Source: Stenotrophomonas acidaminiphila | GTDB lineage: Bacteria; Pseudomonadota; Gammaproteobacteria; Xanthomonadales; Xanthomonadaceae | Assembly (NCBI GenBank): GCA_002951995.1 | Contig: CP019797.1 | Coordinates: forward strand, 3,580,501 to 3,644,500 | Length of the DNA: 64,000 bases | Direction: 5' to 3' | Shown here: positions 31,378 to 53,270 of the stretch, in pieces | How positions within the stretch are numbered: the first letter of the stretch is position 1 | Layout: each line of letters begins with the position of its first letter | Position numbers and translations under genes: made by a program | The notes under the pieces: model-generated | Databases searched by the model: none | Seen by the model: only the letters and a program-made list of their open reading frames with translations | Told to the model about the DNA's origin: nothing

Positions 31378-31403
31378 CGTTGGCAGCTGGCGCACGCCGC
31401 GGC

Positions 31404-32105
31404 TCACCGCGCGGGCACGGGCCGGCGGCCGTACCTGCGGTCCAGGCGGAGGCCGATGACCACCGCCACCACCACCGGCGCCATCCACGGGAACAGCTCG
31501 ACCAGCAGCGGCGGCACCGCGGCGTGCGCCTGCAGCCACTGCCACAGCGGGCGCATGCCGATGCCAAGGAACGCCACGTGGGTGGCGATGCCCGCGCCCA
31601 GCATGGACTGGTAGTGCTGGCGCAGTGCCCAGTCCGGGCGCGACGGGCCGCGACGGGCGAACTTCCACATGCGCCCGCCCACCCACAGGCCGATCGTGGA
31701 GAAGCCCAGGAACAGCAGCTGGCCATGGCGGACGCCGACCACCAGCGTGGCCAGCGCCAGCAGCAGCACCGGCCACAGCGCCAGTTTCCAGCCGACGCGC
31801 GCCACCAGCCGCTTCCAGTCGCGCTTGTCGGTGACCGCGCGCCATGCCAGCCAGGCAGCGTTGCCGGTGAGGGCCATCAGGTAGGCCAGGAACAGCGCCG
31901 ACAGCGGCTGCTTGCGGAACCAGGCGTACTCCACGGTGATCGGCAGCGCGGTGGCGACGATCGCCGCCATCGCCAGCAGGTACACCTTGCCCAGCGCACG
32001 ATGCCGCGGCGAGCCCTTCTTCATCAGCGCCGCCGACCAGAAGCCGGCCAGCGCGACCACCCCGGCCAGCACATGCAGCGCGACGAACAACGAATACCCA
32101 GGCAT
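31404..32105 (-). CDS. DUF2306-type integral membrane protein
   Basis: Membrane protein of 233 residues with about six hydrophobic segments. It begins MPGYSLFVALHVLAGVVALAGF and has the SPRHRALGKVYLLAM segment seen in DUF2306 proteins, with conserved histidines that could bind a cofactor. Function is unknown. The start at 32105 was chosen because the frame upstream is not membrane-like. It is divergent from the histidine kinase gene over 162 bases. Confidence 0.7.
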   Translation of the reverse strand: MPGYSLFVALHVLAGVVALAGFWSAALMKKGSPRHRALGKVYLLAMAAIVATALPITVEYAWFRKQPLSALFLAYLMALTGNAAWLAWRAVTDKRDWKRLVARVGWKLALWPVLLLALATLVVGVRHGQLLFLGFSTIGLWVGGRMWKFARRGPSRPDWALRQHYQSMLGAGIATHVAFLGIGMRPLWQWLQAHAAVPPLLVELFPWMAPVVVAVVIGLRLDRRYGRRPVPAR

Positions 32106-32267
32106 GACATCCTCCGATGGCGGCCGGCGGAATGCGGCGGCTGGTGCACAGATTCGTTGCACGGCGTCGGCCACGGCAGTCGCCGTGGTCACCTCCGGAC
32201 CCTGCCGGAAGTCACTTTCTGCAGCGTCCCCCTTGCCGCCGGCCGGCGCGCCCACCAGCATGCATGC

Positions 32268-33374
32268 ATGGAACTCGGCTCGCAGTCGCGCTGGCGCGGA
32301 CTTCTCCACCCCCTCAATCTGGCCGGACTGCTCACCTGGTGTGCGGTGGCCTTCACCCTGTCCTATGGCGACACCGCGCTGCTGCCCTGGCGCTGGGGCA
32401 GTGCCCTGCTGTTCCTGGCCGCCTTCCTGGTGGCCACGGCGCTGCCGCGGGCGTCCTGGCAACGCGCCGCGCTGCTGCTGGTGGAAGCCATTGCGGCGCT
32501 GGCGCTGGTACGGCTGGCGCATTACAGCGGGGTGGCGCCGGCGTTGCTGGTGATGCTGGCGGCGCAGGTCGCCGCCACCTGGCCGCTGCGCATCGCCCTG
32601 CTGGCGGTCGCCGCGCTGGACCTGGGCATGTACGCCGTGCTGCACGGGGTCAACGCGCATGCCGGGGTGGTGGTGGTGATCTTCGCCGGCTTCCAGGCCT
32701 TCGCCATGCTGACCACGCACTACGCGCGCAGCGCCGAGCTGGCCCGCGACCGCCTGGCGCTGGTCAACGCCGACCTGCTCGCCACCCGTGCGCTGCTGGC
32801 CGAAAGCTCGCGCGACGCCGAGCGCCTGCGGCTGTCGCGCGACCTGCACGATGTCGCCGGGCACACGCTCACCGCGCTGCGCCTGCAGCTGCGCGCGCTG
32901 GCCACGCAGCCGGGCGCACCGGCTGGGCTGGCATCGTGCGAACGGCTTTCCGCCGAACTGCTGGGCGACATCCGCGCCGTGGTGCAGTCACTGCGCGACG
33001 GCGGCGGGCTGGACATCGCCACCGCCCTGCACGCGCTGGCCGCGCCGCTGCCGCGGCCACGCCTGCACCTGCAGCTGGACGACAACGTGCGGGTGCGCGA
33101 CACCGCGCTGGCCGAGGCGCTGCTGCGCTGTGTGCAGGAAGCGCTGACCAACAGCGCGCGCCACGGCGACGCGCAGGTGCTGCACGTCGCCCTGCGGCAG
33201 CACGACGGGCGCCTGCTGCTGGACATGCACGACGACGGCCGCCTGCGCGGCGAACTGCGCGAGGGCAACGGCCTGACCGGCATGCGCGAACGCGTCGCCG
33301 AGCACGGCGGCAGGCTGCAGCTGCGGCGCAAGCCGGACGGCGCGCTGCACATCCAGGCGGAGTTCGCGGCATGA
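32268..33374 (+). CDS. Sensor histidine kinase (NarX/DesK type)
   Basis: Membrane sensor kinase of 368 residues. Residues 15-150 hold about five hydrophobic segments and no large extracellular domain, as in DesK-like kinases that sense membrane state. A short coiled coil follows, then the HisKA_3 dimerisation site with His194 in RLSRDLHDVAGHTL and an ATPase domain (EALTNSARHG, NGLTGMRERV). The start at 32268 is the last of three ATG codons in a row of ATGC repeats. Its stop overlaps the response-regulator start (ATGA). The stimulus is unknown. Confidence 0.9.
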   Translation: MELGSQSRWRGLLHPLNLAGLLTWCAVAFTLSYGDTALLPWRWGSALLFLAAFLVATALPRASWQRAALLLVEAIAALALVRLAHYSGVAPALLVMLAAQVAATWPLRIALLAVAALDLGMYAVLHGVNAHAGVVVVIFAGFQAFAMLTTHYARSAELARDRLALVNADLLATRALLAESSRDAERLRLSRDLHDVAGHTLTALRLQLRALATQPGAPAGLASCERLSAELLGDIRAVVQSLRDGGGLDIATALHALAAPLPRPRLHLQLDDNVRVRDTALAEALLRCVQEALTNSARHGDAQVLHVALRQHDGRLLLDMHDDGRLRGELREGNGLTGMRERVAEHGGRLQLRRKPDGALHIQAEFAA

Positions 33375-34006
33375 GCCGCACCCCGCGCATCGCCCTGGTC
33401 GACGACCAGGCCCTGATCCGCGCCGGCCTGCGCGCGTTGCTGCAGCAACAGGGCATCGACATCGCTTTCGAGGCCGACAGCGGCGAGGCGCTGCTGGCAC
33501 GCCTGGCGCAGCAGCCGGTGCAGCTGATCGTCTCCGACATCCGCATGCCGGGCATGGATGGCATCCAGGCGTTGCAGGCGCTGCGCGCGCGCGGCGACCT
33601 GACGCCCTGCCTGTTCCTGACCACCTTCGACGAGAGCGACCTGCTGCTGCGTGCCACCGCGGCCGGCGCGCAGGGTTTCCTGCTCAAGGACGCCGCGCCG
33701 GAAGACCTGCGCGACGCCATCGTGCGCATCGTCGCCGGGCGGACCCTGCTGCAACCGGTCAGCACCGACCCGGTACGCCAGCGCTATCGCTACCACGCCG
33801 ACGATGCGCCGCGCGAGCTGTTCAGCCAGAAGGAAGTGGCGGTGCTGCGGCTGATGGCCGGCGGCTACAGCAACCGCGAGATCGCCGCCAGCCTGTTCCT
33901 GGCCGAGGGCACGGTGAAGAACTACGTCTCGGCCATCCTGGACAAGCTCGACACCCGCGACCGTACCCGCGCGGTGCTCAAGGCGATCACGCTGCGGGTC
34001 ATCTGA
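33371..34006 (+). CDS. NarL/FixJ-family response regulator
   Basis: Partner of the kinase, 211 residues, coupled to it by an ATGA overlap. The receiver domain has Asp10-Asp11 and the phospho-acceptor Asp56 (LIVSDIRMPGMDG), Thr and Lys switch residues (FLTTFDE, FLLKDAAP), and a C-terminal LuxR helix-turn-helix (SQKEVAVLRLMAGGYSNREI). Target genes are not evident; the closest lipid gene that such a pair might control is the desaturase 10 kb away, which is speculation. Convergent with the cation-efflux gene. Confidence 0.93.
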   Translation: MSRTPRIALVDDQALIRAGLRALLQQQGIDIAFEADSGEALLARLAQQPVQLIVSDIRMPGMDGIQALQALRARGDLTPCLFLTTFDESDLLLRATAAGAQGFLLKDAAPEDLRDAIVRIVAGRTLLQPVSTDPVRQRYRYHADDAPRELFSQKEVAVLRLMAGGYSNREIAASLFLAEGTVKNYVSAILDKLDTRDRTRAVLKAITLRVI

Positions 34007-34018
34007 GCGCCGCCGTGC

Positions 34019-34981
34019 TCAGGGCGCGGCGCTGCGCACTTCCACGGTGACATGCACGATCTCCTCGTGCACCGACAGCGCGCGGTGGAACAGCTCGGCG
34101 TCGACACCCGGCACGGTCGCCACTTCCATCGCGCAGGCGAAGCGGCCGCGGCCGACCTGCCAGACATGCAGGTCGCTGATATGGGCCGGCACCGGCCCCT
34201 GTTCCACCGCCTCGCGGATCTCGGCCACCACCGGCGCGTCCATCTCCGCGTCGAGCAGCACCCGGCCGGTCTGCCGGATCAGGCCCCAGGCCCACACCGA
34301 TACCAGCACCGCGCCGACGATACCCATCAGCGGGTCCAGCCACCACGCATTGAAGTACAGCCCGCCGAGCAGCGCGATGATCGCCAGCACCGAGGTGGCG
34401 GCATCGGCCAGCACGTGCAGGTAGGCCGAACGCTGGTTGAGGTCGTGCTCATGGTGGCCGTGGGGTTCGTGGCCATGGTCGTGATGAGGGTGGTGGTGCC
34501 CATGGTCGTGGTGGTGGTGGTCGTGCTGGTCGCGCAGCCACCACGCGCACAACAGGTTCACCGCCAGCCCCACCACGGCGATGGCGATGGCCTGCTGGTA
34601 GTGGATCGGGCTGGGCTTGAACACCCGCGCGATCGACTCGAAGGCCATCAGCCCGGCCACGCCCAGCAGCAGGATCGCGCTGGTGTAGCCGGCCAGGATC
34701 TCGATCTTCCAGGTGCCGAAGGCGAAGCGCGGGTCGTCGCGGTAGCGCCGCGCGCAGGCGTAGGCGAACGCGGCCAGGCCCAATGCCAGCGCATGCGAGC
34801 TCATGTGCCAGCCGTCGGCCAGCACCGCCATGGAGTTGAACCACCAGCCGCCGGCGATCTCCACCACCATCATCACCAGGGTCAGCGCCATGGCACGGCG
34901 GGTGTTCTTTTCGGCCATCGGGTTGCCATGGCTGAACGCGTGGCTGTGCTGGCGGGAGCGGGCAAGGGTTTCGGGATTCAT
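34019..34981 (-). CDS. dmeF: CDF-family divalent cation efflux protein (DmeF-like)
   Basis: Inner-membrane cation diffusion facilitator of 320 residues that exports Co(II), Ni(II) or a similar metal in exchange for protons. Six membrane segments are visible. The metal-site motif ADGWHMSSHAL is near residues 55-65, and the loop between segments 4 and 5 is very His-rich (HDHHHHDHGHHHPHHDHGHE, about residues 153-180), typical of DmeF. A cytoplasmic domain closes the protein. It is divergent from an RcnR-like repressor over a clear operator, so it is almost certainly metal-induced. Confidence 0.9.
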   Translation of the reverse strand: MNPETLARSRQHSHAFSHGNPMAEKNTRRAMALTLVMMVVEIAGGWWFNSMAVLADGWHMSSHALALGLAAFAYACARRYRDDPRFAFGTWKIEILAGYTSAILLLGVAGLMAFESIARVFKPSPIHYQQAIAIAVVGLAVNLLCAWWLRDQHDHHHHDHGHHHPHHDHGHEPHGHHEHDLNQRSAYLHVLADAATSVLAIIALLGGLYFNAWWLDPLMGIVGAVLVSVWAWGLIRQTGRVLLDAEMDAPVVAEIREAVEQGPVPAHISDLHVWQVGRGRFACAMEVATVPGVDAELFHRALSVHEEIVHVTVEVRSAAP

Positions 34982-34999
34982 GGCGTGACACCTTCTCAG

Positions 35000-35016
35000 A
35001 TACCCCCATAGGGTAT
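35000..35016. promoter_or_regulatory. Operator of the divergent efflux/repressor pair
   Basis: ATACCC-CCATA-GGGTAT is a perfect 6-bp inverted repeat around a C-rich centre, the type bound by CsoR/RcnR-family repressors. It overlaps the TATACG/TACGAT promoter box of the repressor gene. Confidence 0.75.
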
Positions 35017-35021
35017 ACGAT
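35016..35021 (+). promoter_or_regulatory. -10-like box TACGAT of the repressor gene
   Basis: TACGAT ends six bases before the ATG at 35028 and overlaps the last base of the operator, so the message is probably leaderless and blocked by bound repressor. Confidence 0.45.
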
Positions 35022-35027
35022 CCGGCC

Positions 35028-35300
35028 ATGGCCCATATCCAGCGCGACAGGAAGAAGCTGCTCACCCGGGTGCGCCGCATCGCCGGCCAGGTGGCCGCGC
35101 TGCAGCAGGCGCTGGAAGCCGGCGACGACTGCGACGCGGTCCTGGTGCAGATCGCCGCCGCCAAGGGCGCCATGCACGGGCTGATGCTGGAGGTGATGGC
35201 CGGCCATCTCAGCGACCATGTCGTGGCCGAGGCCGATCCGGCGCGGCGCGCGGACGAGGCCGGGGTGCTGCTGGAACTGCTCAGGCGGCACGCGCGGTGA
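35028..35300 (+). CDS. RcnR/DmeR-type metal-responsive repressor
   Basis: Small all-helical repressor of the CsoR/RcnR family, 90 residues. The Ni/Co ligand set of RcnR is present at the same numbers: His3, Cys35, His60 and His64 (MAHIQRD, DDCDAV, MAGHLSDHV). This favours nickel or cobalt over copper or formaldehyde sensing. It is divergent from the dmeF-like gene and binds, by inference, the palindrome at 35000-35016, repressing both genes until metal binds. The ATG is six bases from the promoter box. Confidence 0.88.
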   Translation: MAHIQRDRKKLLTRVRRIAGQVAALQQALEAGDDCDAVLVQIAAAKGAMHGLMLEVMAGHLSDHVVAEADPARRADEAGVLLELLRRHAR

Positions 35301-35364
35301 CGCCGCCCGGGCCCGCCGGCCAGGCATGAATGCGGGCTGCCGGGGCACCCCCTGGCGGGCCATG

Positions 35365-35370
35365 TAAAAT
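35365..35370 (+). promoter_or_regulatory. -10 box TAAAAT of the motor-like operon
   Basis: TG-TAAAAT-GCCC, 22 bases before the DUF3348 start. It is the only good promoter box ahead of the four-gene operon 35393-39839. Confidence 0.5.
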
Positions 35371-35392
35371 GCCCGATTTTTCGGTCAGGACC

Positions 35393-36124
35393 ATGGCGAA
35401 AGCTTCCACACGGGCGCCCGTGCTGGGCCCGGCGTTCATTCGCCTGCTGGCCCGCTTCGGCGACGCCGACCTCCCGCGCACGCCGCCGGTACTGACCGAG
35501 CGGCTGGCGCAGTGGTTCGACTGGAACCGCGCCATCACCCTGTCGCGCGCGCTGGACAACCGGCTGCCGGCCCCCGCCGACGGTCCCGCCTTCGACACCG
35601 CCCAGGAAGCCGAATGCGCGCGCCTGCGCCGTTCGCTGCTGGACACCATCGACGCCGACGTCGACCTGTCCGCGCCGCGCCGCAAGGACGCCAGCGCCGC
35701 CAACATCGACCCCGGCTACCTGCCCTACCGGCAGCACTGCCTGGCCGCGCAGCGCGCGATGCAGGCGACCACCGGCCTGCTGCGCGGCCGCCTGCGCGAC
35801 ATGCTGGCACTGCAGTCGCCGGCCAAGGCACGCCTGGCCGAGGTCGACGCAGTGATGGAAGCCACGCTCAGCCCGCGCGAACAGGCGCTGCTGGCGATCG
35901 TCCCCGGCCTGCTCGGCCTGCACTTCCAGCGCCTGCGCGATGCCGGCGCCCCGGATACCCCCGATACCGCCGCCGCCGACGCGGCGGACGACACTCCCGC
36001 TGCTCCCGCCGCCGGCCCCTGGCTGGCACGGTTCCGCCAGGACATGCGCACCGCGCTGCTGGCCGAACTGGACGTCCGCTTCCACCCCATCGACGGCCTG
36101 CTCGCCGCGTTGCGCACCCGGTAA
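35393..36124 (+). CDS. DUF3348 protein, first gene of a motor-like operon
   Basis: Cytoplasmic, helical protein of 243 residues of the DUF3348 type; function unknown. It has no signal or membrane segment. A conserved-looking core runs from PAFIRLLARFGDADLP through QWFDWNRAITLSRALD, and a variable Ala/Asp/Thr-rich linker (residues about 185-210) precedes the last helix. It is followed at 10 bases by the DUF802 gene, and the four genes to 39839 overlap or nearly touch, so they form one transcript. I infer that it serves the membrane complex encoded next to it, perhaps as a cytoplasmic adaptor. Confidence 0.75.
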   Translation: MAKASTRAPVLGPAFIRLLARFGDADLPRTPPVLTERLAQWFDWNRAITLSRALDNRLPAPADGPAFDTAQEAECARLRRSLLDTIDADVDLSAPRRKDASAANIDPGYLPYRQHCLAAQRAMQATTGLLRGRLRDMLALQSPAKARLAEVDAVMEATLSPREQALLAIVPGLLGLHFQRLRDAGAPDTPDTAAADAADDTPAAPAAGPWLARFRQDMRTALLAELDVRFHPIDGLLAALRTR

Positions 36125-36134
36125 CCGCCTCTCC

Positions 36135-38531
36135 ATGTCCAGAAACCCCATCGTTCCCGTCGTGTTCCTTGCCGGCCTGCTGGCCGTGTGCTGGATCGGC
36201 ATCGGCTACCTCGGCAGCCATCCGCTGGCCGCCGCGGTGGCCGCGCTGATCGCCGCGTGCTACCTGGCCGGCGGCTTCGAACTGCTGCGCTACCGGCAGG
36301 CCACCGCCACCCTGGTGCAGGCGCTGCCATCGCTGGGCGAGGCCGCCGGCGACCTCGACGGCTGGCTGTCGCGGCTGCAGCCGGGCCTGCGCCATGGCGT
36401 GCGGCTGCGCATCCAGGGCGACCGCGTCGGCCTGCCGGCACCGGCGTTGACCCCCTACCTGGTCGGCCTGCTGGTGTTGCTGGGCATGCTCGGCACCCTG
36501 CTGGGCATGATGGCGACCCTGCGCGGCACCGGGCTGGCGCTGGAAAGCGCCACCGACCTGGACGCCATCCGCAGTTCGCTGGCCGCGCCGGTCAAGGGCC
36601 TGGGTTTCGCGTTCGGCACCTCCATCGCCGGCGTCGCCAGCTCGGCCGCGCTGGGCCTGCTGTCGGCGCTGCTGCGGCGCGAACGCGCGCAGGCGGTACA
36701 GCAGCTCGATGCGGGCATCGCCACGCACCTGGGGCACCTGTCGCACGCGGTGCAGCGCCGCGAGACCTTCCGCCTGCTGCAGGAACAGAACGCGCTGATG
36801 CCGGCCCTGGTCGAGCGCCTGCAGGCCCTGGCCGACACCCTGGAGCGGCAGCAGCACGACGCCGGGCAACGCCTGCAGGCCAGCCAGCAGGCATTCCACC
36901 AGCACAGCGAGGCGGCATGGACGCAGCTGGCCGGTTCGCTGCAGCAGGCGCTGCGTGACGGCATCGCCCAGCAGGCCAACGCCGTCGGTGCCGCGCTGCA
37001 GCCGGTGGTGGACACCACCATGGCCGCGCTGGCGCAGAAGTCCGACCGCCTGCAGGCGGCCATTGAACAGGCCGTGCACCGCCAGCTCGACGGCCTGGAC
37101 AGTGCCGTGCAGGGCACGGCCAGCGCCGCGCGCGAGAGCTGGAGCGCCGCCGTCGCCGAGCAGCAGCGCGGCAACGCAGCACTGGCCGATGGCCTGCAGC
37201 AGGCGCTGCAGCAGTTCGCCGCCACCTTCGAGCAGCGCTCGGCCGCGCTGGTCGACGGCGTGGCGACGCGGCTGGAAGACAGCAGCAGCCGGACCGCCGA
37301 CGCCTGGAACAGCGCACTGGCGCGCCAGCACGACGCCCATGCGGCGCTGGCCGAGCGCAACGAGCAGGCACTGGTGGCCGCCGCCGAACACCTCGACCGG
37401 CATGCACGCGCGCTGGTCGACACGCTGGCACAGGCGCACGGCGAACTGCAGGCGGCACTGGCCGCGCGCGACGAACAGCAGCTGGCGCACTGGTCGCAGT
37501 CGCTGGCGGCGATGCTCGCCACGCTGGAGGAGAACTGGCAGCGCAACGGCGCGCAGGTCGCGCAGCAGCAGCAGCAGGTGTGCGACGCGCTGGCGCGCAC
37601 CGCAGGCGAGGTCTCGGCCCAGCTGCAGGCCGCGGCCGGCGGCGCGCTGGAGGGCATCGCCGGCAACGCGCAGGCGCTGACCGACGCCGCCGCCGACTTC
37701 GCCCGGCGCAGCGACGCCATGATCGACGCCCTGCAGCGTTCGCATGGCGAACTGCAGGACGCCCTGCAGGCGCGCGACGCCGAGCGCTTGGCGCAATGGC
37801 GCGCTGCCTTCGCTACGCTGACCGGCGAGTTCGGCCAGCGCTGGGAACACAGCAGCGCCCAGGTCGCCGCGCAGCAGCAGCAGGTCTGCGACACCCTGGT
37901 ACAGACCACCCAGGCGATCCACGCACAGGCGCAGGCACAGGCGCGCGATACCCTGGCCGAGATCGGGCGGCTGGTCGCCACCGCGTCCGAGGCGCCGCGC
38001 GCGGCCGCCGAAGTGGTCGCCGAGCTGCGCCAGAAGCTGTCCGACAGCATGGTCCGCGACACCGCCATGCTGGAAGAGCGCGGGCGCCTGTTGGAAACCC
38101 TGCAGACCCTGCTCGACGCGGTCAACCATGCATCGCACGAACAACGCGGCGCCATCGACGCGCTGGTCTCGACCTCGGCCGAGCTGCTGGAGCGCGTGGG
38201 CAGCCGCTTCAGCGCGCAGGTCGAAGGCGAGGCCGGGCGGCTCGACGCCGCCGCCGCGCACGTCACCGGCAGCGCGCTGGAAGTGGCGAGCCTGGGCGAA
38301 GCGTTCGGCGGCGCGGTGCAGGCGTTCGGCGACGCCACCGGCAGCCTCAATGAACGCCTGCAGGCCATCGAATCGGCGCTGGAGAAATCGCTGGCGCGCA
38401 GCGACGAGCAGCTCGCCTACTACGTGGCGCAGGCACGCGAAGTGATCGAGCTGAGCATGCTGTCGCAGAAGCAGATCATCGGCCAGCTGCAGCAACTGGC
38501 CGGGACCGGCGACGGGGCCGCCGGCGCATGA
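36135..38531 (+). CDS. DUF802 protein: MotA/ExbB-like membrane core with a long coiled-coil tail
   Basis: Protein of 798 residues. Four hydrophobic segments are seen at about residues 7-27, 31-49, 107-128 and 155-180. The last two (LVGLLVLLGMLGTLLGMMAT and FAFGTSIAGVASSAALGLLS) have the Gly/Ala/Ser-rich look of MotA/ExbB/ZorA proton-channel helices. Residues 200-798 are a Gln/Ala-rich coiled coil with an internal repeat of about 102 residues (HGELQAALAARDEQQLAHW at 435 and HGELQDALQARDAERLAQW at 537). The next gene encodes a MotB/OmpA-like partner and overlaps it by four bases (ATGA). The function is unknown; I infer an ion-driven complex with a cytoplasmic tail, as in ZorA. Confidence 0.8.
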   Translation: MSRNPIVPVVFLAGLLAVCWIGIGYLGSHPLAAAVAALIAACYLAGGFELLRYRQATATLVQALPSLGEAAGDLDGWLSRLQPGLRHGVRLRIQGDRVGLPAPALTPYLVGLLVLLGMLGTLLGMMATLRGTGLALESATDLDAIRSSLAAPVKGLGFAFGTSIAGVASSAALGLLSALLRRERAQAVQQLDAGIATHLGHLSHAVQRRETFRLLQEQNALMPALVERLQALADTLERQQHDAGQRLQASQQAFHQHSEAAWTQLAGSLQQALRDGIAQQANAVGAALQPVVDTTMAALAQKSDRLQAAIEQAVHRQLDGLDSAVQGTASAARESWSAAVAEQQRGNAALADGLQQALQQFAATFEQRSAALVDGVATRLEDSSSRTADAWNSALARQHDAHAALAERNEQALVAAAEHLDRHARALVDTLAQAHGELQAALAARDEQQLAHWSQSLAAMLATLEENWQRNGAQVAQQQQQVCDALARTAGEVSAQLQAAAGGALEGIAGNAQALTDAAADFARRSDAMIDALQRSHGELQDALQARDAERLAQWRAAFATLTGEFGQRWEHSSAQVAAQQQQVCDTLVQTTQAIHAQAQAQARDTLAEIGRLVATASEAPRAAAEVVAELRQKLSDSMVRDTAMLEERGRLLETLQTLLDAVNHASHEQRGAIDALVSTSAELLERVGSRFSAQVEGEAGRLDAAAAHVTGSALEVASLGEAFGGAVQAFGDATGSLNERLQAIESALEKSLARSDEQLAYYVAQAREVIELSMLSQKQIIGQLQQLAGTGDGAAGA

Positions 38532-39175
38532 GCGACGAGATCGAGTTCGACGCCGAATCCAGCGCCACCACCTGGGCCGCGTTCGGCGACCTGATGTCGG
38601 TGCTGCTGGGCGCGTTCGTGCTGATCCTGGCCAGCGTCATCGGCATCCAGCTGCTGCTGCACAACCGCCTGGACGAGGAAGTGAAGCAGCGCCAGGCCGA
38701 GGCCGCGCGGCTGAAGACCCTGGAGCAGGCACTGGCCGCGCCGCTGGCGGCCGGCCGGGTGACCGTGATCGACGGCCGCATCGGCATCAGCGGCAGCGTG
38801 CTGTTCGCGCTCAACTCCGACCAACTGCAGCCCGAGGGCCGCGAGCTGCTGCAGAGCATCGCCGGACCGCTGCGCGACTACCTGTCCGCGCGCGACGAGA
38901 TCCTGATGGTCAGCGGCTTCACCGACAACCAGCCGGTGCGCGCGGCCAACGCCCGCTTCGCCGACAACCTGGAACTGTCGGCGGCGCGCGCGCTCACCGT
39001 CACCCGCACCCTGATCACCGACGGCGTGCCGTCGTCGTCGGTGTTCGCCGCCGCGTTCGGCGCCGAGCAGCCGGTCAGCTCCAACGACGACGAGGCCGGG
39101 CGCGCGAAGAACCGGCGCGTGGAGATCGCGCCGATCCCGCGCCACGCGCCCGATGGCAAGGCCGATGGCCGCTGA
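38528..39175 (+). CDS. MotB/OmpA-like membrane protein
   Basis: Protein of 215 residues with one membrane helix (about 22-44). Asp21 stands at the start of the helix in AFGDLMSVLLGAFVLIL, matching the position of the proton-binding Asp of MotB, ExbD and ZorB. A short coiled coil follows, then a C-terminal OmpA-like peptidoglycan-binding domain (about 75-208: ISGSVLFALNSDQLQPEG, VSGFTDNQPV, NRRVEI). The GHTD motif of OmpA reads GFTDNQ here. The gene overlaps both neighbours. With the DUF802 protein it makes a stator-like pair: channel plus cell-wall anchor. Confidence 0.85.
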   Translation: MSDEIEFDAESSATTWAAFGDLMSVLLGAFVLILASVIGIQLLLHNRLDEEVKQRQAEAARLKTLEQALAAPLAAGRVTVIDGRIGISGSVLFALNSDQLQPEGRELLQSIAGPLRDYLSARDEILMVSGFTDNQPVRAANARFADNLELSAARALTVTRTLITDGVPSSSVFAAAFGAEQPVSSNDDEAGRAKNRRVEIAPIPRHAPDGKADGR

Positions 39176-39839
39176 GGCCGGCGATGTCCACGCGCGGCTG
39201 GAAGCCTGGCAGCAGCAGGGCGCCGACCGCATCGATCCGCTGCGCTTCGCGCTGATGCGCGCGCTGGCGCGGCACGCGGCGCGCCACGACGGCGCGCTGC
39301 GGCAGCACCTGGACGCGCGCCTGCGGGAACTGGCCGATGCCTATGCCGCACTGCCACCGCCCACCGGGCTGCCGCGATCGACGCACGCCGCCGGCGCCAG
39401 CCCGCTGCGACAACTGCTGGACCGGTTCGGCCAGGCGCGGCCGGCGGCGGCACCGGCGCAGTCCGCCGCCCCGGCTGCACCCGGTGCAGCGGGCGACGCC
39501 GGCGACACCGTGCCGGTCGTCGATCTGGCCGCGCCGATGCCGGTACTGGACGAGTTCCAGCAGCTGTGGACCCGCATCCGCATCGACGGCCTGCTGCGAC
39601 ACTGCCTCGACGGCCTGCCCGAGGACGCCGGCCCGCTGCATTCCAGCGTGCTCACTTACCGCGCCATGGCGCTGATGCGCGAGGTCTGCCCCGATTACCT
39701 GCAGCATTTCGTCGCCTACACCGACGCGTTGTCGTGGCTGGAGCAGCTCGGCGGCGGTACCGCCGGTGGCAATGACGGCGATGGCGCCGCGGCCGCCCGC
39801 AGGCCCACGCGCAGCCAGCGGCGCAAAAAGCCGCAATGA
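39165..39839 (+). CDS. DUF2894 protein, last gene of the motor-like operon
   Basis: Soluble, mostly helical protein of 224 residues of the DUF2894 type; function unknown. It has a helical first half, an Ala/Pro-rich linker (residues about 85-115) and a helical second half (LLRHCLDGLPEDAGPLHSSV), ending in a very basic tail (RRPTRSQRRKKPQ) that could touch nucleic acid or membrane. The start at 39165 overlaps the upstream gene by 11 bases; an ATG at 39153 is an alternative. It always seems to belong with its three partners here, so a role in that complex is likely. Confidence 0.7.
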   Translation: MAAEAGDVHARLEAWQQQGADRIDPLRFALMRALARHAARHDGALRQHLDARLRELADAYAALPPPTGLPRSTHAAGASPLRQLLDRFGQARPAAAPAQSAAPAAPGAAGDAGDTVPVVDLAAPMPVLDEFQQLWTRIRIDGLLRHCLDGLPEDAGPLHSSVLTYRAMALMREVCPDYLQHFVAYTDALSWLEQLGGGTAGGNDGDGAAAARRPTRSQRRKKPQ

Positions 39840-39850
39840 CCCGCGCACCC

Positions 39851-39922
39851 GCAGGAGCGCACTTCAATGCGCGACGGGGCCTGACAGGAAGAACTTCATC
39901 GCGCACCGCAGCACGCTCCTGC
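39851..39922. repeat. Imperfect long inverted repeat after the motor-like operon
   Basis: GCAGGAGCGCACTTCAATGC on the left and the reverse complement of a related arm on the right (GCACGCTCCTGC, ending 39922) form an imperfect stem of about 25 bp around GACAGGAAGAA. The GCAGGAGCGC arm resembles dispersed extragenic repeats known from Pseudomonas and Stenotrophomonas. It may also end transcription of the operon. Confidence 0.55.
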
Positions 39923-39963
39923 AAACGCGCTCCTGGGCGGACGCGGGCGGCCTGGCTTTCGCC

Positions 39964-40359
39964 TCAGGTATCGCGGAAGCCGTAATCGAAGGTGTAGTGG
40001 TGCCTGCCGTCGACGATGTCGATGGCGATGCGGCCGTGCAGGCCGGCCAGCTCGCCGGTGCCGCTGTCGGGCACCACGGTGAGGTCGAGCCGGGGCGCGC
40101 CGCGGTCCATGACACCGTTGTGCTGGGCATGGAAGCTGCCGCGGCGGCCGTCGAGAGTGCCTTCGATGCGCTCGAGGGCGACGTAGGCGCCGGAGCCGGA
40201 TACCGGCGACATCATCGCCAGCATGTGCACCACGCTGCTGGCGTCCAACGGGCCATGGAAGCGCTTGTCGAAACGCACATGGCCGACGACCGCGCCGCCG
40301 CCGATGTCCAGTGATTCCTGCGGGACGCGCGTGATGTCGAACTCGCCCTTGGCCTGCAT
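39964..40359 (-). CDS. DUF3224 family protein
   Basis: Small protein of 131 residues, entirely beta-rich and without a signal peptide. It begins MQAKGEFDITRVPQESLDIG and has the VGHVRFDKRFHGPLDASSVV and GSGAYVALERIEGTLDGRRGSF motifs of DUF3224, ending in the DGRHHYTFDYGF strand. The fold is an allene-oxide-cyclase-like barrel; the function is unknown. The start at 40359 opens the first conserved strand. It stands alone. Confidence 0.85.
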   Translation of the reverse strand: MQAKGEFDITRVPQESLDIGGGAVVGHVRFDKRFHGPLDASSVVHMLAMMSPVSGSGAYVALERIEGTLDGRRGSFHAQHNGVMDRGAPRLDLTVVPDSGTGELAGLHGRIAIDIVDGRHHYTFDYGFRDT

Positions 40360-40458
40360 GACGGGATTCCCGGGTTGGCAAGGAAAGCAGTCTAGGCGGG
40401 GACCGCGCATGCCGCCATTGCCGGCGCCGGCGCTACCCGCAAAGCCCACGGTGGACCA

Positions 40459-40812
40459 TCAGCGGAACCAGATCTTCAGCGTCACGTACATTCCATAACC
40501 CAGCGCCAGCACCAGCCACACCAGAAACAGAACGTTGGCCCAGTACGCGCCCGCATGCGCGACCAGCGTATACACCTGCCCGGCGCAGCCCTTGCCGAGG
40601 CAAGGTATCTGGCCCCGCACCAGCGCGCGCATGACGGCGAACAGCGCATAGCCCGCCACGCCAGCGGTCATCAGGAAGCCCACCGGCCCCACCAGCCCCT
40701 GGGTCGGTGCGCCGTTCTCGTCGAAGGGCGCTTTCTGGAGCTGCTTCTGCCCGAACCGGTACCAGGCCCATCCCAGCAGGAGCAGGGAGGAGTAGTAGAG
40801 GAAGTCACGCAT
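40459..40812 (-). CDS. Small integral membrane protein, unrecognised
   Basis: Protein of 117 residues with three hydrophobic segments (YYSSLLLLGWAWYRF, VGFLMTAGVAGYALFAVM, WANVLFLVWLVLALGYGMYV) and a pair of cysteines between the second and third (CLGKGC), which may form a disulphide or bind metal. I do not recognise the family. The start at 40812 was chosen at the first hydrophobic segment; the frame upstream is Arg-rich and unlikely to be translated. Confidence 0.6.
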   Translation of the reverse strand: MRDFLYYSSLLLLGWAWYRFGQKQLQKAPFDENGAPTQGLVGPVGFLMTAGVAGYALFAVMRALVRGQIPCLGKGCAGQVYTLVAHAGAYWANVLFLVWLVLALGYGMYVTLKIWFR

Positions 40813-41192
40813 GTCGTCGCGGTACCGTGGCCGGCCAATCCGCAGTATGGCGGCAAGCGCAACCGCTGCCTGTGGCGCCCTGCACGGATTGGCGGACAAG
40901 GTGCCTGCTTCCTGCGGCTCCCGGGCCCGGCGCTGTCCGCGCATGCGCAGGCCGGTCGCCTCCGACCCGCCGTCGCGAAGCGATGCGCTGACCCACCCGC
41001 GTTCGTACGCCATGCCGGGAGAACCCGCGCGGCGCCGGGAATGTCGCGGCGAATCCGCAGCGGCAGTGGCGCCCGGGTTCTAGCGGAAGGCACGGGTGTC
41101 TGCGTCGCTCCTGCATCCGGCTTGCCTTCGCCGACGACGGCAAGGGCGCGGTCGCCCGCGCCCTTGCGTCGATCACCAGGCGGTCCCGCCGC
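40813..41192. other. Intergenic stretch without a gene
   Basis: About 380 bases between a small membrane protein gene and pirin. It contains a perfect 10-bp inverted repeat, CAAGGGCGCG-GTCGCC-CGCGCCCTTG (41141-41166), with no T tract; it may be a weak terminator for pirin. Nothing else is visible, and the open frames here have no protein-like pattern. Confidence 0.5.
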
Positions 41193-41897
41193 TCAGGCGG
41201 CGGTATCCACCAGCACCAGTTCGGCGTCTTCCAGCGCGCGGACGGTGATGCTGCCCTCACCGGCAATGGCGGCACCGTCGCGGGCTTCGAGCGGCACGCC
41301 GTTCACTTCCACCTTGCCGGTGTTGGGCACCAGGTAGCCGTGGCGGGTGGCGTCGCGGAAGTGGTACGTGGTGCTCTCGCCGGCCTTCAGCGACGCGCCC
41401 AGTACGCGGGCGTCGGCGCGGATCGGCAGGGCCTCCTCGTCACCCTGCATGCCACTGGCCAGGGCGATGAAGCGACCGGAGCGCCCGCCCTTGGGAAAGG
41501 GCTTGGTACCCCACGCCGGGGCGCCGCCGCGCGCATCCGGGATGATCCAGATCTGGAAGATGCGGGTCACCCCCGGCTCCAGGTTGTACTCGGCATGGCG
41601 GATACCGGTGCCGGCACTCATCACCTGCACGTCGCCGGCCTCGGTACGGCCCTTGTTGCCCTGGTCGTCCTGGTGGCTGATGGCGCCCTCGCGCACATAG
41701 GTGACGATCTCCATGTCCGCGTGCGGATGCGGCGGGAAGCCGGTGCCGGGCTGGATGGTGTCGTCGTTCCACACCCGCAGGGCGCCCCAGTGGACGCGCG
41801 CCGGGTCGTGGTAGCCGGCAAAGGAAAAGTGGTGCCTGGCATCCAGCCAACCGTGGTTGGCTCCGCCAAGGGTGGCAAACGGGCGACGCTCGATCAT
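41193..41897 (-). CDS. Pirin family protein (YhhW-like)
   Basis: Bicupin of 234 residues. The metal-binding residues of the N-terminal cupin are visible: His57 and His59 (PPHPHADMEIVTYV), His101 and Glu103 (GIRHAEYN). Some members oxidise quercetin; the true substrate is usually unknown. It starts MIERRPFATLGGANHGWLDA as is typical. It is divergent from a LysR regulator over about 130 bases, which probably controls it. Identification of the family is firm. Confidence 0.92.
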   Translation of the reverse strand: MIERRPFATLGGANHGWLDARHHFSFAGYHDPARVHWGALRVWNDDTIQPGTGFPPHPHADMEIVTYVREGAISHQDDQGNKGRTEAGDVQVMSAGTGIRHAEYNLEPGVTRIFQIWIIPDARGGAPAWGTKPFPKGGRSGRFIALASGMQGDEEALPIRADARVLGASLKAGESTTYHFRDATRHGYLVPNTGKVEVNGVPLEARDGAAIAGEGSITVRALEDAELVLVDTAA

Positions 41898-44357: not shown

Positions 44358-46295
44358 CTATCCCTGCGCCTGGCCCAGCCGCTGCGCCAGGCCCGACCAG
44401 CGGCTGGCGTGGCGCGACAGCGCGGCTTCGATCACCGCCGCGTCGCCCGCCAGGTGCAGGGCGTGGCGGGCGCGGGTGATGCCGGTGTAGAGCAGTTCGC
44501 GGCTGAGCACGCGGTTGTCGCGGTGCGGCAGCTGCAGCCAGACCTCGTCGAACTCCGAACCCTGCGCCTTGTGCACGGTCATGGCAAAGGCACTTTCGTG
44601 CGCCGGCAATGCCGCCGGGTGGAACGGCCGCGGCGCGTCGGGATCGTCGCCGGCGAACCAGGCGGTGGTACCGCGGCCGGTGCCGTCCCGCAGGCAGATG
44701 CCGACATCGCCGTTGAACAGGCGGTGGCGATAGCTGTTCTCGGTGACCAGCAGCAGGCGCCCGTGGAAGTGGGCAGGTGCGCCGCCGCGCGGGGTCGTGC
44801 CGCCGAGCAGCTCTTCGATGCGCGCGTTGAGCCCGCGCGCGCCCTGCGGGCCTTCGCGCACGGCGGTGAGCAGGCGCAGGCGCCCGGCCAGGGCCAGCGC
44901 CTGTGCCGGCGTCTGCGCGGCGGCCAGTGCTTCCCAGTAGCGCTGCAGTGGTTCACGCCAGGCCTGCAGCGGATCGTCCTCGTTCTCGTGGAAGTGCACG
45001 CCGGGCAGCTGCGCGTCGCGCAGCAGCGACAGCGCGCGGGCGGCGTCGCCGCCGCGCATCGCCGCGGCCAGCGGTGCCAGCTGCAGCGCCTCGCTCTGCC
45101 GGTAGCCGCGCTGCAACTGCACGCGGGTGCCGGCGAAACCGGTCGCCGGCGGCGCGATGGATGCCGCCGGCAGCGCGCCCAGCAGGCCCTGCAACGCCTG
45201 CGCGTCGTCGGGCGCAATGCGCGTGCCGTCGCCGGCGGCGCGCAGGATGGCGCCGAGCACGTCGCCGGCTTCCACCGAGGGCAGCTGGTCCGGGTCGCCC
45301 AGCAGCACCAGCCGGGTGCCGTCGGCCACCGCCTCGACCAGCTTGGCCATCAGCGGCAGATCGATCATCGAGGCCTCGTCCACCACGATCGTGTCGTACG
45401 CCAGTGGGTTGTCGGCGTGGTGGCGGAAGCGCGGCGAATCCGGAATCACGCCCAGCAGGCGGTGCAGGGTGGTGCCGGTGGTCGGCAGCTGCGCGCACAG
45501 CGCCGCGTCCACGCCCAGCCGCGGCAGCTGCTGCACGGCGTTGCGCAGGCTTTCGGCCATGCGCTCGGCAGCGCGGCCGGTGGGCGCGGCCAGCGCCACC
45601 CGCGGCGGCGCGCGGCCGGCAGCTTGGGCCTGCGCGGCCAGCAGCACCAGCAGGCGCGCGATGGTGGTGGTCTTGCCGGTACCCGGCCCGCCGGTGACCA
45701 GCAGCAGCGCGTGGCGCAGGGCCAGCGCCGCGGCGCGGGCCTGCTGGTCGACGGCGGGGGAAGCGTCGGTGGATGCGGCGGCCGCAGCGGCGGGCACCTG
45801 GGCGAACAGGTCACCCTGCCGGGCCGCCGGGCCCGGCGCGGCGGCCGCGTTGCCGGGAAACAGCCGCGCGAACAGCGGCGCCAGCGCCGCCGGATCGGCG
45901 GCCTGCAGCGGGGCCTGGCCGATGCGCTGCAGGCCCAGCGCCAGCCGCCGCTCGTACTCGCGGTAGCGCCGCAGGTACAACAGGCCGTGTTCCCAGGCCA
46001 GCGGCGCCTGCGTGGCCTCGTCGGCATCGTCGTCGGGCCGCGCCACCCAGGGCGATGCCTGCAGCTGCGCGATCCAGCCCTGCGCGTCGGGCCAGGGCAG
46101 CGCGGCCTCGACCAGCCGCGCCGGCCGCGCCGGGTCGAACCCGGCGTGGCCGTGGGCGACGGCCAGCGAGGCCAGCGCGGCGGCGGCCAGTACCGCGTCG
46201 GGGGTATCGGGATCGAGCCGGCGCAGGCTTTGCGCCAACGCGTGGTCGAGCGCACGCAGCGCCCCGGCCTTGTTGAGTGCGGCCAGCAGGCTCAT
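44358..46295 (-). CDS. recD: Exodeoxyribonuclease V subunit alpha
   Basis: RecD is the 5'-3' helicase of the RecBCD complex, which processes double-strand ends for recombination and degrades foreign linear DNA. It has 645 residues with Walker A GGPGTGKTT at 202-210, Walker B VDEASMIDL, GDPDQLPSVEAGD, and the C-terminal MTVHKAQGSEFDE and YTGITRARHAL motifs. It is the last gene of recC-recB-recD; its start overlaps the recB stop (ATGA). Identification is certain. Confidence 0.96.
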   Translation of the reverse strand: MSLLAALNKAGALRALDHALAQSLRRLDPDTPDAVLAAAALASLAVAHGHAGFDPARPARLVEAALPWPDAQGWIAQLQASPWVARPDDDADEATQAPLAWEHGLLYLRRYREYERRLALGLQRIGQAPLQAADPAALAPLFARLFPGNAAAAPGPAARQGDLFAQVPAAAAAASTDASPAVDQQARAAALALRHALLLVTGGPGTGKTTTIARLLVLLAAQAQAAGRAPPRVALAAPTGRAAERMAESLRNAVQQLPRLGVDAALCAQLPTTGTTLHRLLGVIPDSPRFRHHADNPLAYDTIVVDEASMIDLPLMAKLVEAVADGTRLVLLGDPDQLPSVEAGDVLGAILRAAGDGTRIAPDDAQALQGLLGALPAASIAPPATGFAGTRVQLQRGYRQSEALQLAPLAAAMRGGDAARALSLLRDAQLPGVHFHENEDDPLQAWREPLQRYWEALAAAQTPAQALALAGRLRLLTAVREGPQGARGLNARIEELLGGTTPRGGAPAHFHGRLLLVTENSYRHRLFNGDVGICLRDGTGRGTTAWFAGDDPDAPRPFHPAALPAHESAFAMTVHKAQGSEFDEVWLQLPHRDNRVLSRELLYTGITRARHALHLAGDAAVIEAALSRHASRWSGLAQRLGQAQG

Positions 46296-49200
46296 GGCTG
46301 GCCTCCCAGCCGCGCCAGCAGCGCGGCGTGGGCGTCGTCACCGCCGGCGAACAGCGCGTCCACCGCGTGCACCAGTTCCGGCGCGAAGGCATGCGCGTAC
46401 ACCCCCGGCGAAGGCGTGCGGGTCGCATCCAGGCCACGGCAGAACAGGTAGCGGATGCCGCCGAAATCACGCGCGTAGTCATAGCCGTCGCCCAACCGGA
46501 AGCGCAGCCAGCGGTGCAGCGCCACGGTGTAGATCAGCGCCTGCAGGTCGTACTCGCTGTGGCGCATGGCCGCCTCCAGCTGCGCCGGGGCGTAGCCGGG
46601 CAGGCGGTTGGACTTGTAGTCGAGCACGTACCAGCGACCGTCGCGCAGGTAGGTCAGGTCGATCTTGCCGGTCATCAGTCCTTCCAGGCGGCCACGCGCA
46701 CCGAAGCCGTGGCGGCCGCGCACCACGCCATGCGCATGCAGCACGCGCAGCAGCGCCGGCACCGCGGTGGGCTGCATGGCGAAGTGGAACTCGATCTCGG
46801 CACGGCGCTCGCCCGCGGCCAGCGCATGCAGCGCGCCGCCTTCGGGCAGGTCCACGGTCAGGGTCTGCCCGACCAGCATGGTGAGCAGGGCCACGCCGTC
46901 GTCGATGTCGGGCCCGGCATAGCCTTCGGCGCGCAGTGCCGCGGCGATTACTCCGGCCTGTCCCGCAGGCGCCGCGTCGCCGGGCCGCCAGCCTCGCCAG
47001 GCGCCGAAGTCGGTGTTCTCCAGCGCGGCATGCAGCACGTTGCCGAAGCGGCTGCCGGCGAAGCGCGGATCGAAGGCCTCCTGCACCGTGACGGGATCCT
47101 GCCCGGCATCGTCTTCGCCCTGCGCCGGTTCGTCGGCGGCGCCGCCGCTGTCCTGCGTGGCGGCGGCCGACGTGTCGTGGCCGGCCTCGGCGTGGGCGAG
47201 CTGGGTGAAGCTATAGACCCACCAGTCCAGCGACAGCGCGCGGCGCACCCCACGCACCGGCGGTACTGCCGGCTCGTGCGCGGGCGGCAGCCGCGCGGGC
47301 AGCGCATCCACGCTGCCCGCGACGATCTGGATGTCGGCGTGCGCGGCCAGCCGCTGCATGTCATCCAGCAGCGGCCCCAGCCGCGAACCGGGCAGCCCGG
47401 CCAGCGCGCCGCCGGCGATCCACAGCGCGTGCTCGGCGCGGGTGAGGCCGACGTACAGCAGGCGCGCGGCTTCGGCCGCCTCCTCGGCGGCGGCCTGCTG
47501 GCCGACCGCCTTCCACTCTGCCGCGTCCTTGTCGATCTTCCAGTGCAGTACGCGGCGCTCACCATCGTGCACGATGCGGTGGCCGTCGGTGGCCGGCGCG
47601 CCGCCGTCGATGCCGACGAACGGCAGGTACACCAGCGGGTACTCCAGGCCCTTGCTCTTGTGCAGGGTGATGACCTGCACCCGGTGCGCGTCCGATTCCA
47701 GGCGCAGCAGCTGGGTCTCGTCGCCGTCGTCGGCATGGGCGATGCGCGCCTGCAGCCAGTCGAGCAGGCCATGCAGGCCGATGCTGCGGGTGCCGGCTTC
47801 CTGCAGCAGTTCGCCCAGCTGCAGGTAGTTGGTCAGGCGGCGTTCGCCGTCGACCAGCGCCAGCAGGCGCTCGGCCTGTTCGGCGCACAGGTCCGACAGC
47901 ATCGCCAGCACGCCGCCGCGCTGCCAGCGCTCGCGCCATTGCAGCAGGCGTTCCTGGTGCCGGCGCTGGCGGTCGCCCTCGTGCTCCATCGTGGCGATGG
48001 CCGCGGCGCTTTCGCCCAGCAGCACGGTGGCCAGCGCGGCGCGCAGGCGGCCTTCGTCGGCCGGTTGCAGCAGCGCCAGCAGCAACAGGCGCAGCTCGTG
48101 CGCCTCGGCGGTCGCGAACAGGCTGTGTTTGCCGGCGGCCACCGCGGGAATGGCGGCAGCGGCCAGCGCCTGCTGGATGCGCGTGGCCTCGCGGTGCGAG
48201 CGCACCAGCACGGCGATGTCGCCGGGGCGCACCGGGCGGCCATCGACCAGCGCCCTGCCCTGGCGCGCCGCGGACAGCACGCGGTGGATGTCGGCCACGC
48301 AGGCCACGGTGGCGGCGTGGCGCGAGTCATCGGCCTTGAGCGGCTTGCCATCGGCGTCGGCGTCGAGCAGGTGCAGGGTCAGCGCCGGCGCGGGGACGCC
48401 GTCGAGCAGGTAGTCGGCATCGCTGCGCTTGGAGCCGGGCTCGACCGGCTCGAAGCGGATGCGCGGGTCGAGGAAAGCCTGTTCGCCGGCGTTGGCGTAC
48501 AGCGCGTCGATCGCGCGCAGCAGCCCGGGGCGCGAACGGAAGTTGTGCGCCAGCCGCGGCGCCTCGGCGGCGCGCTCGCGGGCCTGCAGGTAGGTGTGCA
48601 CGTCGCCGCCACGGAAGCCGTAGATGGCCTGCTTGGGGTCGCCGATCAGGAACAGCGCGGCGGCGGCGGGCGGTTCGGCGAACACCCGGCGGAAGATGTC
48701 CCACTGGCGCGGGTCGGTGTCCTGGAATTCGTCGACCAGGGCAAAGCAGTACTGCGCGCGCAGGCGTTCGGCCAGCACCATGCCGGCTTCGCCGTCCAGC
48801 GCCGCATGCACGCCGTCGATCAGGTCGTCGTAGGTCTGCACCCGGTACTGCTGCTTGTGCCGCGCCAGGCGCTGGCGGGCGTCGTCGCGCAGTGCATGCA
48901 GCAGGACGATGGACTGCTGCCGGCGCCATTCGGCGAAGCGCGCCTGCGCCTGCACGTAGTCGGCGATCAATGGCTGCAGCGGCGACACCGGGGTGCTGCC
49001 GGCCTTGGCCTTCACGGTGCGGGCGGTCAGCGCGTCGAGGGTGAGCCGCTGCAGCCGCTCGTCCAGCGCGGCGGCCGGATCGGGATGGCGCGCCCAGTGC
49101 AGCACCTGCCGGAACAGCGGTTCGATCCATTCGGCCTTGTAGCTGCTCCTGTTGAGCACACCGCCCTCCAGCGCGGCGCGCAGCTGCTGCAGGTAGGCGT

Positions 49201-49918
49201 CGCCATGCGCGGCCAGCCCGCCGGCAAGGCGCAGCGCGGCGGCGTCGCGCAGCGGGCCGGCATCGTCCAGCGGCGCTGGCGGCAGCGCCGGCAGCAGCGG
49301 CAGGTCGGCGACCAGCACCGGCAGGTCGGCCGCCAGGGCGTCGGGGCCCTTCCACAGCGCGGTCAGGGCCGCCAGCGCATCGCCGCGGGCGGCATGCTGC
49401 CGCCACAGGTCGGCCGCGAGCCCGGCGTGGAGCGCGCGGGTATTGGTCAGCAGTTCCGGCGCGGCGAAGCTGTGGCCGCTCTCCAGCGCGTGTTCGGCCA
49501 GTACCCGGGCGCAGAAGCCATGGATGGTGAAGATCGCCGCCAGGTCGGTTTCCTCGGCGGCGATGCGCAGGCGCCGCGCCAGCTGCGCGGCACTTTCGGT
49601 GCCCAGCTGCAGGTAACGCCGCAGGATGGCGCCGGTCAGCGCGGCCTCATGGCCCACGTCCGCCGCTGGCGCGGCCTCGGCCAGCCGCGCCGCCAGGTCC
49701 AGGCGCTCGCGGATACGCCGGCGCAGTTCCTGGGTCGCCGCTTCGGTGAAGGTGACGGCCAGGATCTGGCCCATGCGCAGGTGCCGTTCCACCACCAGGC
49801 GGGTGAACAGGGTGGCCAGGGTGAAGGTCTTGCCGGTACCGGCGCTGGCCTCGATCAGGCGCAGGCCGTCCAGCGGCAGCTCCAGGTACGGGTCGTTCGC
49901 AGGTGCTGCGGTGCTCAT
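46292..49918 (-). CDS. recB: Exodeoxyribonuclease V subunit beta
   Basis: RecB is the 3'-5' helicase and nuclease of RecBCD. It has 1208 residues. Helicase motifs: LIEASAGTGKTFTL (21-34), VDEFQDTDPRQWDIF, IGDPKQAIYGFRGGD, ITLHKSKGLEYPLVY, LLYVGLTRAEHALW. The C-terminal nuclease has GKIDLTY and VLDYKSN, the D-x-K metal site. It overlaps recC upstream and recD downstream by four bases each. Identification is certain. Confidence 0.97.
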   Translation of the reverse strand: MSTAAPANDPYLELPLDGLRLIEASAGTGKTFTLATLFTRLVVERHLRMGQILAVTFTEAATQELRRRIRERLDLAARLAEAAPAADVGHEAALTGAILRRYLQLGTESAAQLARRLRIAAEETDLAAIFTIHGFCARVLAEHALESGHSFAAPELLTNTRALHAGLAADLWRQHAARGDALAALTALWKGPDALAADLPVLVADLPLLPALPPAPLDDAGPLRDAAALRLAGGLAAHGDAYLQQLRAALEGGVLNRSSYKAEWIEPLFRQVLHWARHPDPAAALDERLQRLTLDALTARTVKAKAGSTPVSPLQPLIADYVQAQARFAEWRRQQSIVLLHALRDDARQRLARHKQQYRVQTYDDLIDGVHAALDGEAGMVLAERLRAQYCFALVDEFQDTDPRQWDIFRRVFAEPPAAAALFLIGDPKQAIYGFRGGDVHTYLQARERAAEAPRLAHNFRSRPGLLRAIDALYANAGEQAFLDPRIRFEPVEPGSKRSDADYLLDGVPAPALTLHLLDADADGKPLKADDSRHAATVACVADIHRVLSAARQGRALVDGRPVRPGDIAVLVRSHREATRIQQALAAAAIPAVAAGKHSLFATAEAHELRLLLLALLQPADEGRLRAALATVLLGESAAAIATMEHEGDRQRRHQERLLQWRERWQRGGVLAMLSDLCAEQAERLLALVDGERRLTNYLQLGELLQEAGTRSIGLHGLLDWLQARIAHADDGDETQLLRLESDAHRVQVITLHKSKGLEYPLVYLPFVGIDGGAPATDGHRIVHDGERRVLHWKIDKDAAEWKAVGQQAAAEEAAEAARLLYVGLTRAEHALWIAGGALAGLPGSRLGPLLDDMQRLAAHADIQIVAGSVDALPARLPPAHEPAVPPVRGVRRALSLDWWVYSFTQLAHAEAGHDTSAAATQDSGGAADEPAQGEDDAGQDPVTVQEAFDPRFAGSRFGNVLHAALENTDFGAWRGWRPGDAAPAGQAGVIAAALRAEGYAGPDIDDGVALLTMLVGQTLTVDLPEGGALHALAAGERRAEIEFHFAMQPTAVPALLRVLHAHGVVRGRHGFGARGRLEGLMTGKIDLTYLRDGRWYVLDYKSNRLPGYAPAQLEAAMRHSEYDLQALIYTVALHRWLRFRLGDGYDYARDFGGIRYLFCRGLDATRTPSPGVYAHAFAPELVHAVDALFAGGDDAHAALLARLGGQP

Positions 49919-52900: not shown

Positions 52901-53270
52901 CCCCCAGATAGGTGCGCAGCGCGGCCATCGCCGGCTGCCGCATCAGCGCCGGGTCGGTCAGGGCCGCGTACAGCCGCCACTGCAGCCCCGGCGCGCCGAG
53001 GTCGTCCTGCTCGCCGGGCACGTTTTCCTGCAACGCGCGGGCAACGAACTCACCCGGCGTGAGGAATTCGAGATTGGCGGCGATGCCGTATTCGGCGGCC
53101 AGCGTGGACTGCAGCCAGCGGCGCATCGCCACCTGCGGGATCAGGACCGTGTCGGCCGCCAGCAGCGGCTGCCCGGGCGCGGGCGCGCGCAGCGCGTGGG
53201 CCAGCAACGAGGCGAGCACGTCCAGCGCATTGGAGTGGTAGAGGCGGAAATCCGCGGCGGCATCAGGCAT
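49915..53270 (-). CDS. recC: Exodeoxyribonuclease V subunit gamma (frame broken at 52901-52905)
   Basis: RecC scans DNA for Chi and splits the strands between RecB and RecD. The frame opens at 53270 (MPDAAADFRLYHSNALDVLA) and is typical to residue about 122, where it leaves the frame in a G5 run (plus C at 52901-52905). One extra G gives AALRTYLGGDAPGAGDPL and continues through the rest (VFEKYQAWRRDWLLRWEAG) to 49915, about 1118 residues in all, normal for RecC. Since recB and recD are intact and overlap perfectly, I take the break as a sequence error. First gene of the operon, downstream of rhuM. Confidence 0.9.

Follow-up and report, generated by a model that had tools for sequence, protein, structure and literature searches.

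Stator units of the MotAB, ExbBD and TolQR kind have a 5:2 architecture. The same architecture of stator units is described in the available text of PMC11890865, according to which Zorya types I and II require the ZorB aspartate, the ZorA tail and binding to peptidoglycan, and ion flow matters as well; a nuclease output is shown there for ZorE, a nuclease-like complex is suggested for all Zorya types, and type III is listed as frequent in genera including Stenotrophomonas. Type III itself is defined, in the part of the 2021 PADLOC paper (PMC8565338) available, by DUF3348 and DUF2894 genes flanking a ZorAB pair; the system of this type from Stenotrophomonas nitritireducens DSM 12575 (NZ_LDJG01000021.1) was cloned and provided protection against phages in E. 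coli. An excerpt of PMC13064858 presents the type III Zorya of Ralstonia solanacearum as an example of a conserved species-level system; conservation at this level is, for Ralstonia, already published. Within the available portions of the literature, no structure or mechanism of type III Zorya was found. The two additional proteins go under conflicting names: DUF3348 is ZorF and DUF2894 is ZorG in the excerpts of PMC8565338 and PMC11890865, and these labels are reversed in PADLOC-DB 2.0 (ZorG3 for DUF3348 and ZorF3 for DUF2894).

Identification of a type III Zorya operon

The window, the whole stretch of Stenotrophomonas acidaminiphila DNA analyzed here, is 64,000 nucleotides long. An initial annotation had described one tight DUF3348-DUF802-MotB/OmpA-DUF2894 unit in it, and both the open reading frames and the Pfam matches agree with this description (Table 1). 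The spacing given there, namely, a 10-base gap, a 4-base overlap and an 11-base overlap, was confirmed from the reading frame coordinates. These are also the commonest spacings, at 47, 67 and 38, respectively, of 71 loci for which gene starts were picked by script. The locus set consists of the window and 70 others, all picked for carrying DUF3348; at least one genome is present twice, and the DUF2894 gene of one locus is cut by a contig end. Gene order, which had been proposed for a survey across genomes, proved to be constant, with relatives of all four genes in the same order at 71/71 loci.

Table 1. Coordinates of the operon and of neighboring features in the window
Feature	Positions	Strand	Size	Pfam	PADLOC
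Whole operon	35393-39839	+	four genes		
DUF3348 gene	35393-36124	+	243 aa	PF11828, E 1.2e-75	PDLC00658, E 6.1e-83
ZorA type III	36135-38531	+	798 aa	DUF802, E 3.3e-22	PDLC00650, E 0, 1109 bits
102-residue repeat in ZorA tail	37359-37943	+	units beginning near residues 409 and 511		
ZorB type III	38528-39175	+	215 aa	OmpA, E 3.9e-18	PDLC00651, E 4.4e-109
DUF2894 gene	39165-39839	+	224 aa	PF11445, E 8.8e-41	PDLC00652, E 5e-63
Variable region, hydroxylase to pirin gene	31380-41200				
Three long reading frames	44358-52980	-	645, 1208, 1021 aa		

The Pfam and NCBIfam names of the four proteins mostly denote unknown function. All four are matched by the type III Zorya models of PADLOC-DB (E 0 to 5e-63); the genes for the proteins matching the ZorA and ZorB models adjoin those for DUF3348 and DUF2894, and ZorB carries the aspartate (Asp21). 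Given these four matches and the two partners that define the type, the operon is almost certainly type III Zorya, a previously published anti-phage system, and the candidate "new machine" is thereby resolved. The initial annotation had concluded from a lack of Zorya effectors that the output would differ from that of Zorya. This conclusion does not hold: only the type I and type II effectors are absent, and DUF3348 and DUF2894 are the type III partners. Type I was rejected on the failure of PADLOC searches at E 1e-5 to detect ZorC or ZorD among the 10 proteins neighboring the operon and on a weak match of ZorA to the NCBIfam model ZorA_1 (20.8 bits vs a cut-off of 190); type II was rejected with ZorE not found among the same 10 proteins at the same threshold.

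Genome contigs were scanned with the window DUF3348, a scan from which records very near the window are possibly absent. The closest of at least 30 loci found is the cloned one from S. nitritireducens DSM 12575, with best-segment identities of 88% for DUF3348, 89% for ZorA, 95% for ZorB and 75% for DUF2894. The two systems have the same four genes, order and overlaps, and ZorA is 798 aa long in both; they differ in that they reside in separate genomes, and the DUF2894 protein is the most diverged. With a probability of roughly 0.9, the locus is best explained as an anti-phage Zorya system of type III belonging to a Stenotrophomonas near S. nitritireducens. Gene content, gene order and homology are the part of this system observed directly here. 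Beyond the published definition, we add the match of ZorA to a type I structure, the presence of Asp21 at every locus, the tail repeat, the distribution within the genus, the scarcity of defense neighbors and helical models of the partners.

Genomic distribution and neighborhood

DUF3348 is present in 87 of the 91 genus genomes (83 of the 86 good-quality ones), each time at a single place, which holds two adjacent pieces in seven genomes. Such near-universal presence is unusual for a defense system and speaks against the defense reading. By comparison, HSDR_N (type I restriction) exceeds the cut-off in 46/91 genus genomes and type I ZorA in 0/91, with weak matches in 7/91; this contrast is suggestive, because two comparison families do not amount to a full survey of defense patchiness. 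The four genus genomes lacking DUF3348 (G015, G020, G029 and G070, the last 76% complete) all have the upstream hydroxylase gene, and the downstream genes of the window were not found beside it in the stretches examined. Across the family, 98 of 247 genomes, representing 19 of 54 genera, carry DUF3348, and 129 of the 224 good-quality genomes lack it. At the class level, it was found in 8/369 genomes, four of them from the window's own family, and DUF2894 occurs in the identical eight, a few kb away. DUF2894, but not DUF3348, also scored over the cut-off in the Corynebacterium glutamicum control genome.

The evolution of the operon was compared with that of GyrB in 41 genomes chosen among DUF3348 carriers, 21 of them from the genus. 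Operon distances correlate with GyrB distances (r 0.41-0.57 for all genomes and 0.55-0.64 for those of the genus), and none of 2000 permutations reached such values. The nearest neighbor is the same as in GyrB for only 16-19 of the 41 genomes, and 29 well-supported tree splits include 9 in common with GyrB and 15 in conflict. Median identity within the genus is 54% for DUF3348, 70% for the channel part of ZorA, 76% for ZorB and 38% for DUF2894, vs 90% for GyrB. Single-linkage grouping of the flanking DNA of the 21 genus genomes yielded groups of 8, 6, 3, 3 and 1, eight genomes having the window's site in common on both sides. We read this pattern as a sign that the operon has stayed in its lineages for a long time and was now and then replaced or relocated.

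The genes upstream of the operon encode a biopterin-dependent hydroxylase, a histidine kinase and response regulator, a cation efflux protein and a metal-responsive repressor; those downstream encode DUF3224, pirin and LysR proteins. Proximity to defense genes, which the initial annotation had wished to see surveyed, turned out to be slight: none of the 10 proteins around the operon matched PADLOC at E 1e-5, and at E 1e-15 five models (three PDC-S31 and two RtcR-type) each matched a single one of the 133 proteins flanking 34 other loci, probably two proteins in all. No transposase or integrase family is among the 25 commonest of the 138 Pfam families in the flanks of the other loci. Sister species with common flanks differ in what lies between the hydroxylase and pirin genes and in how long this region is; wherever the metal repressor and efflux pair was detected, 0.4 to 6 kb separates it from the operon. 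The three long reading frames about 4.5 kb downstream of the operon are, by eye, presumably recD, recB and recC.

The near-core presence at one place per genome, set against the two comparison families, the few PADLOC matches in the flanks and the within-genus correlation with GyrB are what one would also expect of a housekeeping envelope-stress or cell-wall motor of the core genome, for which phage protection in E. coli would be an overexpression side effect. We consider such a motor improbable: DUF3348 is missing from 3/86 good-quality genomes of the genus as well as from more than half of those of the family, the operon occupies several different sites within the genus, 15 of the 29 well-supported splits conflict with GyrB, all four proteins change fast compared to GyrB, and a close homolog protects from phages, as reported in the accessible text of PMC8565338. 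Expression data count against the type III defense reading as well: for Burkholderia cenocepacia K56-2 under phage infection, the excerpt of PMC12584637 reports a significant change only in the first one or two Zorya III genes and places Zorya III outside the systems counted as transcriptionally active.

The probable ZorA-ZorB motor

Hydropathy analysis of ZorA gave four membrane segments (about residues 6-24, 33-51, 109-127 and 162-180), the number claimed initially for the DUF802 protein, and the claimed tail of about 600 residues was likewise found. A profile of 45 N-terminal regions (first 260 residues) searched against the PDB retrieved chain 8vvn_C, a type I ZorA, as the best match (E 1.3e-5; profile positions 107-195), and the channel-like helices of ZorA span about residues 107-195. 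The two remaining matches up to E 1, at 0.092 and 0.6, are to helical chains and arose by chance; up to the same limit no second ZorA chain was retrieved. That 8vvn_C is the one chain providing the link counts against the preferred explanation. In ZorA, Thr121, Thr132, Thr162, Ser163 and Ser170 are invariant at 71/71 loci.

In ZorB, the single hydropathy segment directly follows Asp21 and is combined with an OmpA domain, just as annotated, and Asp21 is present at 71/71 loci. With a ZorB profile built on 54 proteins, MotB and OmpA-domain chains scored best in the PDB, and nearly full-length matches were obtained to 8vvn_B (E 7.7e-8) and 8qyd_F (E 4.2e-6), the latter from an entry that we take to be E. 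coli ZorAB. A lack of MotA, ExbB or ZorA similarity, regarded beforehand as counting against a ZorAB/MotAB-like complex, did not emerge, because the ZorA profile matches 8vvn_C and the ZorB profile matches 8vvn_B and 8qyd_F. Together with the PADLOC ZorA3 and ZorB3 matches, this homology supports the wall-anchored, ion-driven reading of the pair.

The channel helices, the ZorB aspartate, the OmpA-like domain and the long cytoplasmic tail are common to the type III pair and type I ZorAB (8vvn, from Shewanella), although the relationship is distant and ZorC and ZorD were not found among the 10 neighbors. With type II, the operon shares the ZorAB core, but ZorE was not found among these neighbors, and two DUF proteins are there instead. 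The OmpA-like anchor of ZorB is as in MotB, whereas the long tail and the added partner genes set the operon apart from MotAB, ExbBD and TolQR. A non-Zorya machine, that is, a force transducer akin to MotAB, TolQR or ExbBD but with a new output of its own, as first proposed, is hardly tenable: ZorB resembles MotB and has its top NCBIfam score with PRK09040 ("hypothetical protein"), and both partners are without known function, but specific type III models match all four proteins, ZorA scores 13.7 bits with the Pfam family MotA_ExbB (PF01618), under the curated cut-off of 22.9, and, up to E 1, type I ZorA is the only MotA/TolQ/ExbB-type PDB chain that this profile of ZorA retrieves.

The repeat-built ZorA tail

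The tail, which includes DUF802, contains three prolines. In a self-comparison of the tail, an offset of 102 residues scored 176.8, vs 48.4 for the best of 50 shuffles; a weaker second repeat has an offset of 55 (score 74.4). Nine orthologs were aligned singly against the window ZorA. Two of these (L003, 798 aa, and L004, 800 aa) align without a large gap, and two shorter ones (L082, 698 aa, and L070, 696 aa) show one 102-residue gap, located inside the repeat. The 102-residue gap recurs in L106 (652 aa), along with gaps of 29 and 11, and in L099 (890 aa), along with one of 186; the gaps in the other three are 22 and 30 (L073), 9, 42 and 33 (L007) and 18, 55, 55 and 47 (L014). Over the 71 loci, ZorA length ranges from 625 to 890 aa, the commonest values being 692-701, 736-754, 777-802 and 884-890. 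Judging from the gap pattern of the orthologs and these lengths, the tail commonly, but not invariably, changes by a 102-residue unit; it has no fixed length. The exact tail length may therefore be dispensable, and sister-species tails one unit apart are natural length variants for tests of tail signaling.

The soluble partners and the proposed mechanism

Structure prediction yielded all-helical models for both partners, with a mean pLDDT of 80.5 and a pTM of 0.75 for DUF3348 (alignment of 54 sequences) and low overall confidence for DUF2894 (pLDDT 74.8, pTM 0.42; alignment of 48). PDB searches revealed a convincing relative for neither. All 54 DUF3348 and all 48 DUF2894 members match their own DUF in Pfam, and any further Pfam match, confined to one or two members, had an E value of 0.011 or worse; the HEPN pair R-x4-6-H is not conserved in the members of either family. 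Because these Pfam and HEPN searches revealed no nuclease family or motif in either partner, the output through a recruited nuclease that characterizes types I and II has no visible counterpart among the type III partners, which weighs against the preferred explanation; a new nuclease fold is possible. What remains of interest is this apparently non-nuclease output, together with the repeat-built tail, and the question is sharpened to how a Zorya system without a recognizable nuclease stops phages, set against the nuclease-like complex suggested for all types in the available text of PMC11890865.

By analogy with published work on types I and II, five ZorA and two ZorB subunits would form an ion channel in the inner membrane; disturbance of the envelope by a phage would let ZorB dock on peptidoglycan, ions would pass at Asp21, the ZorA ring would move, and the long tail would relay this to the cytoplasm. 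These motor steps probably apply to type III Zorya. In the least certain step, the ZorA tail would recruit or release DUF3348 and DUF2894, which would stop the infection; this role of the partners is offered tentatively. A version that makes type III Zorya a mostly resident motor, close to core status, with a non-nucleolytic output, unlike the DNA nicking of types I and II, seems rather unlikely; here, two helical adaptors and the repeat-built tail of variable length would halt infection, for example, through DNA or membrane binding by the basic DUF2894 tail or through channel gating. Within the type III Zorya mechanism preferred here, DUF2894 might contact nucleic acid or membrane via its basic C-terminus: the last 25 residues carry a net charge of at least +4 in 67 of 70 proteins, the one cut by a contig end having been dropped from the 71.
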